Source: Cytophagales bacterium (lineage in GTDB: Bacteria; Bacteroidota; Bacteroidia; Cytophagales; Flammeovirgaceae). From it: a stretch of 64,000 nucleotides of DNA. Each line of letters starts with the position of its first letter. Positions within the stretch are counted from its first letter, which is position 1. The translations under genes and the position numbers were made by a program. The DNA lies in the NCBI GenBank assembly GCA_025056215.1, contig JANWWC010000005.1, positions 1 through 64,000 on the forward strand, written 5' to 3'. Positions 1,503 through 55,935 of this stretch are shown in pieces. The notes beneath the pieces are model-generated. The model had not been told where the DNA came from and ran no database searches. It saw only the letters and a program-made list of their open reading frames with translations.

Positions 1503-2216
1503 ATGGGCGTTAAAATTTCGCGAAAAAAAAAGAGGGTGTGGTTGTTGAGTGTTATCTATCGCCTTCAGAAGCTCCTGCCGATTAGCAAAGAATTGAAATT
1601 TAAGCTATTTTTAAATTTGGAGTGGATTTTTGATAGGTTATCTCACGAGTTGTCTTTTAGTTTTTATACGCCTTTGGAGCATCCTTTTAGACATTACACT
1701 CAACTATTTTTATTGAAAAATATAGATGCTTCTTACTCAGTATTAGATTTGGGTTGTAAAGCAGGGGAAATTACTTACCTTCTTGCATCGAAAGCAAAAG
1801 AAGTAGTAGGTATTGATTACGACAAAGATGCTATTCAACTCGCGCAATCTTTGTATAAAAAAGAAAATTTAAAGTTCTATGCAGTAGAAGGATATGAATT
1901 CCTCAAAAATAATACTATTTCTTTTGATGTGTTAGTGCTTTCTCACGTGCTTGAACATTTAGACGAACCTGAAGAGTTTTTGAATAGGTTTAAAGGGTTT
2001 TTCAAATATATTTATATCGAAGTTCCTGATTTTGAAAAAAACTATTTAAACCTTTATAGAAAAAAGATGAACCTTAGCTTGTTATACACAGATGAAGACC
2101 ATGTTTCAGAGTTTGACAGAGAAGAGTTGAGGAGTTTGCTGAAAAAATGCAATTTGCAAGTATTAGAAGAAGAGTACAGGTTTGGCGTTCAAAGGTTATG
2201 GTGCAAAGTACTATAA
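1503..2216 (+). CDS. Class I SAM-dependent methyltransferase
   Basis: A 237-residue class I methyltransferase. Motif I (VLDLGCKAGEITYLLA) and the acidic residues after it (VGIDYDKDAIQLA) bind S-adenosylmethionine. The segment VLVLSHVLEHLDEPEEFL is the usual motif IV/V region of the Methyltransf_11/23 type. A basic N-terminal extension of about 60 residues (SRKKKRVWLL) precedes the domain. In this setting, between glycosyltransferases, the likely job is methylation of a sugar or glycan end, but the substrate is not shown by the sequence. A TATCTTTG promoter box lies just upstream. Confidence 0.85.
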   Translation: MGVKISRKKKRVWLLSVIYRLQKLLPISKELKFKLFLNLEWIFDRLSHELSFSFYTPLEHPFRHYTQLFLLKNIDASYSVLDLGCKAGEITYLLASKAKEVVGIDYDKDAIQLAQSLYKKENLKFYAVEGYEFLKNNTISFDVLVLSHVLEHLDEPEEFLNRFKGFFKYIYIEVPDFEKNYLNLYRKKMNLSLLYTDEDHVSEFDREELRSLLKKCNLQVLEEEYRFGVQRLWCKVL

Positions 2217-2262
2217 CAATTTTGCTTAAACTCTTTTGCTAATTTTAATTTGATGAAAACTT

Positions 2263-3177
2263 ATGTCACCATGTCCTTTTTGCGAATGCACTGACTATAA
2301 AAAATCTTATTTGCCTTCTACTTATTTTCATAATAAGCGGTTTGACGTAGTAGAGTGTAGAAGGTGTGGCTTGCAATATCTTTTTCCATTTCCTTCTTTA
2401 GATGATTACATAGCAATGTACCCACCCTCTTATCAAGAGGGTGTAGACAAAACAATTCTAAAAAACCTTTCTGAAAAGTTGCCGGGCTTGCGTTACTCTT
2501 ATCAGTACAAAATAAATTTAATTCAACGATTTGTAGGAGATTTGAGTCGCATCACCCTCTTGGATTACGGTTGTGGAAATGCTAATTTTGTGGTTAACTT
2601 AAACCATTATGGAATTCGTTGTGATGGAACAGAATTTAATTCGCTCCATGTAAAAATTTTAAGAGAAGCAATTCCAGAAAGTAATTTCTACACAATCGAT
2701 GATTTTTTAGCAGAAAAAACTCCAAAATACGATGTGATTCATTTAAGCAATGTTTTAGAACATTTAGATAAGCCTTTCGAGATTGTTCAAAAGATAGTTT
2801 CAAGGCTCAATCCTAATGGAATTCTATTAGTAGAAGGCCCTTTAGAAGATAATTTTTCGTTTGCCTTTTTAACAAGAAAATGGTATTTTAATTTGCGAAA
2901 CTTGTTGCAACCTTCGTGGGTAGCTTGCCATGTTCCTACACATATTTTCTTTTCTAATTATAAGAATCAGCGCAATTTCTTTCGAAGAATTCATGGGCTT
3001 CAAGAGCTTCATTATGAAGCAAAAGAAGAGCCTTGGCCTTATCCAGAGTTCAAAGAGCAAGCGAAAAATGCAGTAGACAAAATCAAATACTATATCGGAC
3101 AGTTTAGCAAGAAAATTTCTATGCTCAATTCAACTTGGGGAAACACATTTATTTATGTCGGAAGAAAAACAACCTAA
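2263..3177 (+). CDS. Zinc-ribbon SAM-dependent methyltransferase
   Basis: A 304-residue two-part protein. Residues 4-36 hold two cysteine pairs (CPFCEC and CRRCGL) that resemble a small zinc ribbon. From about residue 95 there is a class I methyltransferase fold with motif I LLDYGCGNANFVVNL and the downstream LSNVLEHLDKPFEIV. This arrangement is common in C-methyltransferase-like proteins of O-antigen and deoxysugar clusters. The last 23 nt overlap the next glycosyltransferase gene in another frame, which indicates tight operon packing. The acceptor is unknown. Confidence 0.85.
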   Translation: MSPCPFCECTDYKKSYLPSTYFHNKRFDVVECRRCGLQYLFPFPSLDDYIAMYPPSYQEGVDKTILKNLSEKLPGLRYSYQYKINLIQRFVGDLSRITLLDYGCGNANFVVNLNHYGIRCDGTEFNSLHVKILREAIPESNFYTIDDFLAEKTPKYDVIHLSNVLEHLDKPFEIVQKIVSRLNPNGILLVEGPLEDNFSFAFLTRKWYFNLRNLLQPSWVACHVPTHIFFSNYKNQRNFFRRIHGLQELHYEAKEEPWPYPEFKEQAKNAVDKIKYYIGQFSKKISMLNSTWGNTFIYVGRKTT

Positions 3178-21261: not shown

Positions 21262-21357
21262 AAAAAAGCAAGCCAGCATCTCACCGCTACAACCGATTAC
21301 CCTTGCTTCGGTCAGGACCTGGGGGATTTTCAGGAGCTGGTAGTGCCAACTTGCCTT
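21262..21357 (-). ncRNA. ffs: Small signal recognition particle RNA (4.5S type)
   Basis: On the minus strand the sequence contains the SRP domain IV core (CCCCCAGGTCCTGACC, GAAGCAAGGGTAA) that binds Ffh and FtsY. The 5' arm GCAAGTTGGC (minus, from 21354) pairs over 10 positions, counting G-U pairs, with the 3' arm GCTGGCTTGC (to 21268), closing one long hairpin. A T-run follows at 21262-21267. On the minus strand TATATTTG (21360-21367) is a good -7 box just upstream. The RNA converges on the tRNA-Asn terminator. Exact ends are estimated to within a few bases. Confidence 0.9.
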
Positions 21358-21469
21358 TGCAAATATAGGAAAAATTTTACTATCAAAATCAGTTTTAAAA
21401 ATATTTTAAAGACTGTATTTACCGTTAAACGAATGGCTATTGCAAATAAGCTATTTCATTAGGATTTTA

Positions 21470-50954: not shown

Positions 50955-52190
50955 TTAAGATGCGCTATTTGATATAGGAGTGTTGGAGCGTTTAACTTTC
51001 ATTTTAGGCTCGTTACTTTTCTGTTGTTTAAAGCGATTAATAAAACGCTGTAGGCTATTGTTGTTGCCATCTTGATTGAATTCTTCATCGCTTCGGCTCA
51101 CGCTTAAAATAATTCCTATAGACATGCCCGTAAAAATAAGTGACGTTCCTCCCATGCTTAGTAAGGGGAGCGGCAAACCTGTTACAGGAAGCAATCCGAT
51201 AGAAACTCCAATATGGACAAATGCTTGTACGACGATACTAAAAGCGAGTCCCGCAGCTAATAAACCTCCAAAAGCGCGTTCCGTTCGTGCCACAATAAGG
51301 ATACTTCTATATAAGAAAACTAAATACAAAAAAATAATGAAGCTAGCAAAGATAGTTCCATATTCTTCTACAATGATTGCAAAAACAAAATCGGAATAAG
51401 GGTGGGGCAAGAAATTGCGTTGTGTACTTTGTCCGATTCCTTTTCCTAAAATACCTCCAGTAGCAATTGCAATATACGATTGTTCTACTTGAAAAGGAAC
51501 ATGGGTAGCATCTGTATACGCGGCCAAACGGCTTCGGACGGTTTGTCCTCGTTGTCCAAAAGTAAAAGCAAACATTCCTGCTATTACTCCTACCACAATG
51601 AGCATAATAATGTTCTGTATAGGAACTCTTCCGATAAACATCAATAGAAGGCAAGTCATAAAAAGAAGAGAAGCAGTAGACCAATCGCTTACACCAATGA
51701 GTCCACAAATAATGCCGCACCAAATAATTACCGGCATAATAGCGCGTTCGAATTCGTGAATACTCAGTTGCCGTTTGGAAAGCATGCTGGCTAAGTTAGC
51801 AATGAGTGCTAGTTTGGCTAAATCTGAAGGCTGAAAAGAGTATTTTAATAAAGGAATAGTAATCCAGCGAGATGCTTGATTGAGCGTTGTTCCAAACTGC
51901 CAGGCAATGAGCAACAAAGGCACTGAAATAATGAGTGCAATCCGCGATAAACGAGAATAGTACTTATAATGAATATTGTGGCATAAATAGGTAGCTATTA
52001 AAGAAATAACAACTAATAAACTATGTTTTATTAAAAAATATTCGGTATCACCTCCATAGCTTTTGTAAGCTAAGCTACCTGTTGCGCTATACACTACCAA
52101 AATGCTTAACAGAGAAAGAAAAATAGTAATTGCCCAAATAACCTTGTCGCCTTTCAGCTCATCCACTATAATTTGTAAATATTTCATCAT
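50955..52190 (-). CDS. ftsW: FtsW/RodA/SpoVE family lipid II polymerase
   Basis: A 411-residue SEDS-family membrane protein with ten predicted helices. The signature LPVTGLPLPLLSMGGTSLIF and the N-terminal LSILVVYSATGSLAYKSYGGDTEYFL match FtsW of Bacteroidota. It would polymerise septal peptidoglycan with a partner transpeptidase. A basic, Asn-rich tail follows. The gene is not accompanied by mur or fts genes. A leader of about 75 nt separates it from a hairpin and a 21-codon ORF at 52285-52350. RodA cannot be fully excluded. Confidence 0.88.
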   Translation of the reverse strand: MMKYLQIIVDELKGDKVIWAITIFLSLLSILVVYSATGSLAYKSYGGDTEYFLIKHSLLVVISLIATYLCHNIHYKYYSRLSRIALIISVPLLLIAWQFGTTLNQASRWITIPLLKYSFQPSDLAKLALIANLASMLSKRQLSIHEFERAIMPVIIWCGIICGLIGVSDWSTASLLFMTCLLLMFIGRVPIQNIIMLIVVGVIAGMFAFTFGQRGQTVRSRLAAYTDATHVPFQVEQSYIAIATGGILGKGIGQSTQRNFLPHPYSDFVFAIIVEEYGTIFASFIIFLYLVFLYRSILIVARTERAFGGLLAAGLAFSIVVQAFVHIGVSIGLLPVTGLPLPLLSMGGTSLIFTGMSIGIILSVSRSDEEFNQDGNNNSLQRFINRFKQQKSNEPKMKVKRSNTPISNSAS

Positions 52191-52262: not shown

Positions 52263-52297
52263 AAAAAAAAAGATATGTGAAACATCACATACCTTTT
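52263..52297 (-). terminator. Strong minus-strand terminator or attenuator upstream of ftsW
   Basis: On the minus strand a 13-bp stem (plus 52285-52297 with 52268-52280), with one G-U pair and a TGTT loop, is followed by about nine Us. It lies 73 nt before the ftsW start. Its 5' arm contains the last codons and the stop of the 21-codon ORF at 52285. Confidence 0.8.
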
Positions 52298-52350
52298 AAC
52301 CTTAACCAATAAACAACACATAAAATAAATACTGCTATATTGCTTAGCAT
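52285..52350 (-). CDS. 21-residue hydrophobic peptide (small membrane protein or leader peptide)
   Basis: An ATG at 52350 (minus) opens 21 codons ending in TGA at 52285-52287. The product is MLSNIAVFILCVVYWLRLKG plus a final Met: one transmembrane-length hydrophobic run followed by a basic end, the layout of tiny single-pass membrane proteins. A candidate promoter, TTTTG-N19-TTTATTTG, lies just upstream on the minus strand and would start transcription within about 15 nt of the ATG. The terminator begins inside the last codons. No known family recognised. Confidence 0.45.
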   Translation of the reverse strand: MLSNIAVFILCVVYWLRLKGM

Positions 52351-53007: not shown

Positions 53008-53586
53008 ATGGTGAAAGGCTGCTGGTTGTTAATAGGGTTGTTCATTTTACAAGCTTGTCGCAATCCTTACATTAAGCAAGATCCCCCAGAATTGTTTTCT
53101 ACCACTGATGATTCAGAGTTATATTTCAAAAATGTAAGGCAAATCTTTTATTACCGAACTACAGATACTACTCAACGAGAGTTTTTTCGCATTAAATCAA
53201 TGCCTCAAAATAATAACGTTCCTCTGATTGGACTTTGTATTGTAAACCATTGGAAAGCTGATAAGGCATTTCTTTTGCTAGAGCCTAACGGTTGGTTTGT
53301 GAGTGAAGATTCTATAGAAGTGTTGTGGCACGATGCTCAAAATCCTCTTATTCATGGCAAAATTTTTTTTGAACAAGGTCCTATTTATAAGCATTATTTT
53401 TTTGCTTTAGAAATTTATCGAGGCATTTTGAAGGAATATAAGTTTGAAGTAAGACAAAGAAATCGAAAAGCTCCTTTTTTAGAAGACGAAGAAGCGCGTG
53501 AAGCTTTTCGAATTACAGTAAAAGACTTTTTAAAGCTCATCAATCAATTGGAAGAATCAGAAAAAATTTTAGAATCATCTCCATAA
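53008..53586 (+). CDS. Lipoprotein of unknown function
   Basis: A 192-residue predicted lipoprotein (MVKGCWLLIGLFILQACRN, lipobox LQAC). The mature part is charged and mixed alpha/beta, with LIGLCIVNHWKADKAFLLLEPNGWF, and ends in a helical segment (VKDFLKLINQLEESEKIL). I do not recognise the family. It begins 1 nt after the Lrp-type regulator stop, so both are co-transcribed. The large decayed region starts directly downstream. Confidence 0.75.
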   Translation: MVKGCWLLIGLFILQACRNPYIKQDPPELFSTTDDSELYFKNVRQIFYYRTTDTTQREFFRIKSMPQNNNVPLIGLCIVNHWKADKAFLLLEPNGWFVSEDSIEVLWHDAQNPLIHGKIFFEQGPIYKHYFFALEIYRGILKEYKFEVRQRNRKAPFLEDEEAREAFRITVKDFLKLINQLEESEKILESSP

Positions 53587-53672
53587 AAATTGTAGATAGA
53601 GTTTTCTGAACAATTTGCTTTTCGAAACTTTCACTCAGAGTACCTAATCTACGTTTCGAATGAGCAGAATTT

Positions 53673-55300
53673 ATGTATTTAGCGAGTTTGTTATTGATAA
53701 GTTCTTGTTTAAGAGCGCAAACAATTCCTAACTAAAGGAAAAAACTTTTGGGGTCGGGCCTTTTTACAGAATTATCAAGTTCTTACAAGTTCACCTTCCT
53801 AAAAGGTGCAAATCGTTTTACATGCTTCCTAGGATAAGAATACGCGTATTCAAATGAGCATTCCACAGTAGCCAGCAGATGAGTGTTTTTTAGAATTTGC
53901 TTGGTACTCGCCTTGCAAGCGATACGTTAGTATGCGACAATAAAAACCTTATTCCGTATTTACAAAAAGTGAATCTCCAAAGATGTTTGTTTGAGTTGAG
54001 CTATTAAAGTGTATAATCAATGTTTTTCTTCTAATTTAGTGAAAATGATTACTCTTATATTTCTGTGTGATTTTTTCTCCTTGCGGAAATTTTTCATCTA
54101 CAATTAGTCAGAAGGTTCGAGCTTGTCAGTGGTTTGCGCTTCTAACTGCTTTTTTATCTGATACGATTTGCTATAGAGATACGACTATTTTAATAACTAC
54201 TTTTAAAGCAATTCTTTTTTAGATAATTTTTAATCGAACAAATTTACAAGCTAACAGGCAATGAACTTTTTCTGTTGTTGTCTTTTTGCAGAGCAATTGC
54301 AGAACTTTAACAGGAGAGCGCTTGCGATTAGCAGGAAACCCTGTTAGAATTCTTACATATCAATGCTACGCAAGCAGATTGGTGTGAGTTTTGCGTCGGC
54401 GCTTCCTATTCAGGGGAATTGTACGGCTCCTTCTGAGCTTGATTGATTTCGTTCGACTTATTTCACAACTATAGCATTACGCGGACAACTTTTGATTTTT
54501 ATCCTAGTCTTTGTTTTACAAGCAAGAAGGTTTCAGTTTTTTTTAAATTCCTATTTCTTTGGAGGCTCGAACTTCCCTATATACAGTTTCGTTTTTCCAA
54601 TGTGTCAATGATAATTTTGGGGTTAGCAGAAAATTTTTGGGCCGTGAAAATTAGTTAAGAAAACCGTTTGTAAATACTCTTGGAAATCTCCCTCGAGTTT
54701 GTTTTTTTGGAGTATTTACTTACAAAAGCTTTTCCAGGCTTGTCCACTAAGTACCTGTGCAAGTAGCAGAGAGTTTGATAGGTTGTTTTGTGAGTGATTC
54801 AGGAGTATTCTACGTTTGTGAAAATTCTTCTTCAACTTACTAAATCAGGGGATACATCTGTTTGCGGTAATGAAACAGTTATGCGTTAAGCCTTTGCTTC
54901 AAAGCAAGGTTCCTATTTTGTTGGACGCTCTCTAGAATTGGAGATGAGGACACCTCTTTTTTAATGTTTACATACTACTATTGTTTACAAGACAAATGCT
55001 TTCTCACAAGTGCGCATCGAACAGCGAAAAAAATCAACTTTAAAATCTTTTCTTCAAATTGTTTAGGCGATAGTACGCAGCATATTCCTGCGTTAATTTG
55101 AAAAACGCTTTTCTGATACAATTCCTTTATTTTAGTATTTTGACCTTATGCTAAGCTTTCTACTTTTAAGGTAAGCAGTTTCTGTCAGACCTTCTTCTAC
55201 TACAGGATATCGTTAAAAATTCTGGTTTGCTTCAAGTTTTTGGCAATACTTTTTCTTCTGAATAAAACTTTAATCAGTTTTCTGACGATTAAGAATCATG
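53673..55300 (+). pseudogene. Decayed gene for a giant secreted surface (IgGFc-binding/Ig-like, gliding-type) protein
   Basis: No frame is open for more than ~70 codons, yet coding remnants are ordered as in Cytophagales surface proteins. An ATG at 53673 gives a complete signal peptide (MYLASLLLISSCLRAQTIPN), then a stop. In the next frame, 53734-53868 reads KGKNFWGRAFLQNYQ, a stop, KVQIVLHAS, a stop, DKNTRIQMSIPQ, a stop. This matches the KGKDFWxxFxQNY...S.KNTR..VSIPQ start of these proteins. Later pieces include SDTLVCDNKNL (~53916-53950), SDSGVFYV (54793-54816), DTSVCGNETV (54851-54880) and SSNCLGDSTQ (55051-55080), the Ig/PKD-module pattern. Frameshifts and nonsense codons separate them. 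The 3' end is undefined. Confidence 0.72.
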
Positions 55301-55317
55301 CATAGCCTATCAAAAAA

Positions 55318-55935
55318 TTAAACTTGGATAATAAGAATTTGGCGGATGGTATCTCCTAGTTTGAGTTGCGGTAAATATTTTAAATCTCGATTTAATACTT
55401 TTCCAAAGATAGTGTGATTCCCGTCTAAGCATTCAGGAATTTCGTTTCCTACGCACAAATAAAACTGAGAACTTACTCTATCGCGGATAGTATTTGCCAT
55501 GCCAATTGAGCCAAGTTCATGGTAGACCAAAGGTGTATTGCATAACTTAAAGTATTGCTTCGCAGATTCTACAAATTTATTAATTTTATTGTGTAGGCGA
55601 TTGCTCAGATAACCATCGAATTCAGAAGGAGTTTCGCCATGCCTAAGAGAAATTGGCTTTTCTTCTCTCAAAGCGTAATGCGATGAGCCTTGATACCTCG
55701 AAGATGCAGAAATTTCGTTTTTAATAAAATAACCTGCATCTCCTGTGCCATCATTATGCGGGCAACCACTCTGAATGAGAACGTTAGGAATATGCTTGAA
55801 AAACTTTAGCCCATTGTAAAATCCTTCTTTAGCTAAAAAACAAAAATTGTCTACTGTTTTAGGAGCAATTTCTTCAAACAGTTTTACATCGATACTAAAG
55901 TGAGCTAGTTCAATTCTTGCGAGTAATGCGCTCAT
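55318..55935 (-). CDS. Cyclophilin-type peptidyl-prolyl isomerase with an insertion
   Basis: A 205-residue cyclophilin-like protein, longer than the usual ~165. Family motifs are APKTVDNFCFLAKEGFYNGLKFFKHIPNVLIQSGCPHNDGTGDAGYFIKNE and, later, GSIGMANTIRDRVSSQFYLCV and LDGNHTIFGKVL. About 55 extra residues (roughly 80-135) separate these two halves. The catalytic FHRVIP motif reads FFKHIP, so the active-site Arg is a Lys and the preceding His is Phe; activity may be reduced. No signal peptide is seen. Its ATG overlaps the TGA of the small upstream gene (ATGA). Confidence 0.85.
   Translation of the reverse strand: MSALLARIELAHFSIDVKLFEEIAPKTVDNFCFLAKEGFYNGLKFFKHIPNVLIQSGCPHNDGTGDAGYFIKNEISASSRYQGSSHYALREEKPISLRHGETPSEFDGYLSNRLHNKINKFVESAKQYFKLCNTPLVYHELGSIGMANTIRDRVSSQFYLCVGNEIPECLDGNHTIFGKVLNRDLKYLPQLKLGDTIRQILIIQV

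Follow-up and report, generated by a model that had tools for sequence, protein, structure and literature searches.

Probable remnant of an IgGFc_binding-type surface-protein gene in an ORF-free interval of a Cytophagales genome

Related surface proteins and bacterial pseudogenes

The systems closest to the locus of this study are the intact IgGFc_binding-type (PF17517) surface proteins of the same order and bacterial pseudogenes generally. Like bacterial pseudogenes in general (e.g. PMC2916853), the locus is free of open reading frames (ORFs), carries nonsense and frameshift damage and has intact genes on either side, and no feature distinguished it from them. The leaders of IgGFc_binding-type proteins and that of the locus share the pattern [ST]xGKxFW..F...N...TxxxxSIP, which in the proteins follows a signal peptide and in the locus a candidate one. 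The locus differs from these proteins in its stops and frameshifts, in its length of only about 1.65 kb, and in that neither a PF17517 core nor a sorting domain was detected.

Intact homologues had open frames of 349-3,270 aa, some of them cut at contig ends, and those of the leader set measured 588-3,270 aa. Proteins with PF17517 were present in 18 of the 58 genomes of the order. A search with the leader alignment gave matches in 40 of 117 genomes; as the region was the first row of that alignment, its own match there is no evidence. Of the 18 family genomes, counting the own one, 3 carried the leader, and the putative remnant would add one point to the patchy occurrence of IgGFc_binding-type surface-protein genes in the family. 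The own genome contained one intact leader-bearing protein (G000:C9:14749-19779, 1,676 aa) with PF17517 and a T9SS sorting domain (CHU_C / TIGR04131). A leader of the same kind with one TAG inside was observed at G054:C5:28956-29132 and may be a further broken member, this time from another family.

The ORF-free interval and its 5' leader

The candidate remnant of one gene occupies positions 53587-55317 on the plus strand of the window, that is, the whole 64-kb stretch of DNA that was analysed. Among spaces longer than 300 bp, with ORFs taken from stop to stop and counted from 120 aa upwards, the widest gap in the window was 53584-55320 (1,737 bp), two times the size of the runner-up at 2214-3076 (863 bp); the tile with the runner-up gap lay outside the top six for the leader profile. 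Within 53587-55317, just two ORFs (51 and 71 aa) had a usual start and a length of 50 aa or more. The longest stop-free run in six frames was 75 aa, compared with 84 ± 16 in 300 dinucleotide shuffles, so that the ORF content of the interval is that of random DNA. Both the gap size and the shuffle-like stop-free runs showed that the original prediction was right in describing 1.7 kb with no usable ORF. Stops on the plus strand of the interval were somewhat depleted (92 versus 108 ± 6 expected from shuffles). This depletion is uninformative, since the 84 tiles of the window, mostly gene-containing, showed nearly equal average depletion (z -1.96 ± 1.72; 26 of 84 at -2.7 or lower). A codon-usage frame HMM gave no signal, its plus-strand values being no higher than those of shuffles (reached by 23-92 of 200).

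The gene upstream of the interval (53008-53586, plus strand, 192 aa) is intact, has a lipoprotein-like start and could be assigned to neither a Pfam nor an NCBIfam family with the thresholds applied; it was present in 17 of 27 relatives at 30-38% identity. The convergent neighbour (55318-55935, minus strand) is an intact cyclophilin-type peptidyl-prolyl isomerase (PF00160). An intact gene that only appears broken through sequencing or assembly errors might be expected in a draft assembly of 17 contigs, but so dense an error load should also break both neighbours, and because both flanking genes are intact this explanation is hardly credible.

The shuffled-DNA-like ORF content and codon usage would also be expected of an interval that never coded for a protein, or of a structured RNA or long regulatory region. 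Against this stand the leader homology at the 5' end described below, an Rfam search with no match inside the interval, and the folding energies of 22 folded segment-strands (z -1.3 to +3.3), none of which was unusually stable; the structured-RNA alternative raised with the original prediction thus showed no sign by Rfam or folding energies. Conservation of the DNA was also absent among 37 relatives, none of the same genus, apart from one A+T-rich match of 56 nt in G008 (79% identity, E 4.5e-4), which there coincides with the beginning of an unrelated frame of 171 aa. A plasmid search with the interval DNA gave no match. A non-coding origin is accordingly rated very improbable.

A candidate signal peptide, MYLASLLLISSCLRAQTIPN, was read at 53673-53732 on the plus strand. 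It is the sequence MYLASLLLISSCLRAQ directly upstream of the leader and lies out of the leader frame. By the rule applied here, a comparable signal peptide occurred in the first 150 nt of 6.8% of 1,000 shuffles, and a second candidate was found within the region at 54363.

The Phe-Trp leader of IgGFc_binding type, TKGKNFW...DKNTRIQMSIPQ, lies at 53731-53868 on the plus strand. From TKGKNFW to SIPQ the match keeps to one frame over about 45 amino acids, with two in-frame stops inside and a third immediately 3' (1 TAA and 2 TAG), and identity to 13 aligned IgGFc_binding-type leaders reached up to 31%. The description of one frame broken only by stops holds for 53731-53868. With a profile of 43 leaders (hmmsearch; own intact protein included, region left out), the region ranked first among 3,001 sequences, namely itself and 3,000 shuffles, at 9.3 bits (E 4e-4 over six frames), while the top shuffle scored 6.5 bits; the region also led the window tiles. 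Smaller profiles placed the region second (9 leaders) and first (23 and then 22 leaders) among 1,001. A frameshift-tolerant leader scan gave 36.9 for the region and 19.7 ± 2.4 for shuffles, with 0 of 200 shuffles equal to it. With the own protein omitted, the scan gave 33.7 versus 19.8 ± 2.5, and one shuffle of 1,000 (38.7) exceeded the region while none of the 84 tiles reached it; a tile measured 1,444 nt and the region 1,731 nt. A frameshift-aware search of the kind suggested with the original prediction found an IgGFc_binding-type leader at the start of the region. These results support the reading of the start of 53673 to about 55300 as a gene remnant whose leader belongs with IgGFc_binding-type (PF17517) surface proteins. 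Coding homology with a broken frame, the mark of a pseudogene, was present in the leader, whose frame is interrupted by stops. A leader of 45 residues can suffice to assign an ORF-free stretch whose remainder has eroded.

Ig-like motifs, core and sorting domain

Downstream of the leader, the peptide fragments quoted in the original prediction were found in the sequence at their places. A matrix of the Ig-module cysteine motif, built from 79 instances in other proteins and excluding the own intact protein, was applied to the region. By a version of the matrix that included the own protein, suggestive copies on the plus strand were LASDTLVCDNKNLIPYLQ at 53912-53965, AFLSDTICYRDTTILITT at 54148-54201, FKIFSSNCLGDSTQHIPA at 55039-55092 and TFKVSSFCQTFFYYRISL at 55162-55215. 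The best copies by this version were, in order, those at 54148, 53912, 55162 and 55039, and the top-scoring one, at 54148-54201, was absent from the fragments listed in the original prediction. The stretch with DTSVCGNETV (54842-54895, plus strand) had a low matrix score of 1.0, and a stop-free stretch at 54446-54547 (plus strand) weakly resembled the end of an Ig-like module by the module profile.

The top-1 to top-6 sums of the cysteine motif were reached by 83, 43, 27, 15, 10 and 11 of 1,000 shuffles and by 7, 4, 0, 0, 0 and 1 of 84 tiles, respectively. The full module profile, with frameshifts allowed, was slightly high against shuffles and unremarkable against window tiles, its top-4 sum being reached by 26 of 300 shuffles and 22 of 84 tiles, which is unconvincing. 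The module signal faded from profile to profile. With a first one, none of 200 shuffles equalled the whole region and 2 of 200 equalled its remainder; two larger module profiles were reached by 8-50 of 200 shuffles, varying with the number of summed hits, and the full profile just described, with the own protein omitted, by 11-103 of 300 shuffles and 15-47 of 84 tiles across its sums. A regular expression for the cysteine motif (3 versus 0.52; 28 of 2,000) was discounted because the region itself had shaped it. Ig-like modules downstream of the leader are no more than suggestive. The Ig modules of the original prediction found agreement in the cysteine top-4 sum (15 of 1,000 shuffles, 0 of 84 tiles) but not in the full module profile. 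The module-like order claimed for the later fragments fared similarly: the fragments are present, but DTSVCGNETV scored low and the full module profile was ordinary. Fragments picked by eye as module-like need real-sequence controls.

A PF17517 search of the own genome gave a match at C9 only and none in the region. The leader-plus-core profile, applied to the rest of the region, scored 21.4 compared with 20.9 ± 2.4 in 300 shuffles, showing no PF17517 core, and with a leader-plus-core profile of 380 columns the region scored 1.9 bits versus 5.1 in shuffles and was not ranked first. For sorting-domain remnants, the type B (CHU_C) score of the region was reached by 131 of 200 shuffles and 50 of 66 tiles, and the type A score by 15 of 200 shuffles and 5 of 66 tiles, with the match at the 5' end. 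Pfam searches of the plus-strand frames (frame 0 to 55098) and of joined readings gave only a sub-threshold DUF1919 match (E 0.026).

A tblastn search of the intact own protein against the region alone gave E 11 at best. With flanks included, the best match (E 0.018) fell within the upstream gene, in minus-strand orientation. The joined reading gave 23 weak matches outside the region in 58 genomes (best E 0.006); 7 of the 23 were re-aligned together with the intact own locus and none was leader-like, and the best match (L035) was antisense to a longer frame. Pairwise frameshift alignment was run with 35 frames, 20 from the own genome and 15 from relatives, the latter taken from one strand of the loci so that some were other than the intended surface proteins. 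With a lax penalty, 4, 6 and 1 of 60 shuffles reached the three summary scores; with a strict penalty, 43, 44 and 17 of 60 did, and reversed proteins outscored real ones.

Significant homology was thus limited to about 45 residues, with the rest of the 1.7 kb lacking a reliable match. Together with the difference between the leader frame and the candidate signal-peptide frame, and with the one shuffle in 1,000 that beat the region in the frameshift-tolerant scan, this would fit a decayed gene for an exported protein of another kind, with a coincidental leader match. Such a gene is unlikely, given the first rank of the leader among 3,001 sequences, the 0 of 84 tiles that equalled it, its right position in the gene, and the cysteine-motif top-4 sum that no tile reached.

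Decay was simulated by randomly mutating the intact own gene (8 replicates per setting). The region itself had a leader score of 33.7, a leader-plus-core score of 29.4, a module top-4 sum of 78.3 and a stop z of -2.7. A model running from the leader directly to the modules, with 20-30% replaced sites and 2-4% indels, gave leader scores of 27-35, leader-plus-core scores of 25-31, module sums of 78-95 and stop z of -1.5 to -1.8. At the same settings, a model that kept the core gave leader-plus-core scores of 58-169, well above the observed 29.4; its module sums (75-83) fit, and its stop z of -2.5 at the mildest setting fits too. The two models are told apart by the core and not by the module score, since only leader-plus-core differs from the observed value. 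The PF17517 core is either deleted or was never present. Deletion appears likelier than original absence because PF17517 is also present in every one of the 15 genomes, out of the 58, in which the leader was found. The internal loss of the original prediction agrees with the simulation, which favours a leader without core and falls short of proof.

Proposed history and genomic surroundings

The interval is quite probably a pseudogene of a known kind, that of an IgGFc_binding-type surface protein. The original gene would have run on the plus strand from 53673 to about 55300 and encoded a surface protein destined for export, in which an N-terminal signal peptide preceded the Phe-Trp leader. The gene may have fallen out of use, after which nonsense and frameshift mutations would have built up and much of it would have been lost, the PF17517 core and the C-terminal sorting domain probably among the losses. 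Relaxed selection may account for this loss, leaving a neutral remnant that, judged from its sequence, is most likely without present activity.

A large original size, T9SS export and Ig-like modules would be expected by analogy with relatives. The original prediction of a decayed giant T9SS surface-protein gene was borne out for the decay and the leader, while the modules were suggestive. The size and secretion route came from relatives and were not confirmed: the remnant covers only about 1.65 kb compared with 349-3,270 aa in intact homologues, and the region held no remnant of a type A or type B sorting domain.

The own genome measured 2.83 Mb, and 16 of the 17 same-family genomes searched measured 5.4-9.5 Mb, with one at 3.0 Mb. 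A tentative reading, held with low confidence, is that the gene became non-functional while the genome of an undescribed Flammeovirgaceae genus was contracting, with one intact leader-bearing protein left, and that the IgGFc_binding-type surface proteins of the family are disappearing one at a time; if true, the remnant would date one such surface-protein loss. Alone, the remnant means little, being an ordinary dead gene in a genome that is small for the family.

The own genome contained 12 CHU_C matches, 7 above the cut-off including the C9 protein, in frames of 319-1,677 aa, and 23 PKD_4 matches, 13 of them above the cut-off. A very large putative surface protein, with an open frame of 6,177 aa and a PKD match, was observed in the area of G000:C10:208251 (L113). 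At G000:C10:475000-479200 (L110), three PKD-bearing frames (416, 426 and 764 aa) lie side by side, each starting in a lipoprotein-like manner, and are probably a tandem family.

Two other non-coding elements were observed in the window. The first, of about 70 nt (52263-52336), is conserved in relatives and lies between an ftsW/rodA-like gene (50955-52190, minus strand) and an Lrp/AsnC gene (52521, plus strand). Its identity was 87-97% over 32-78 nt in all relative loci fetched (15/15; L242-L256), compared with about 63-75% for matches in the coding genes beside it, and for 13 of the 15 loci the contig carried an Lrp match on the same strand, no more than 600 nt away. ARAGORN found no tRNA in the 15 loci, Rfam gave no match in any of the 8 loci scanned, and on the window stretch itself the only Rfam match was sub-threshold and located elsewhere. 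The core is nearly invariant (CTTAACCAATAAACAACA...) and a hairpin was present in most loci, the minus strand reading hairpin and then T-run in a terminator-like manner; the element is a candidate for an undescribed small RNA or regulatory element. The second is a Bacteroidales small SRP RNA (RF04183) at 21262-21363 on the minus strand, which adjoins tRNA-Asn.
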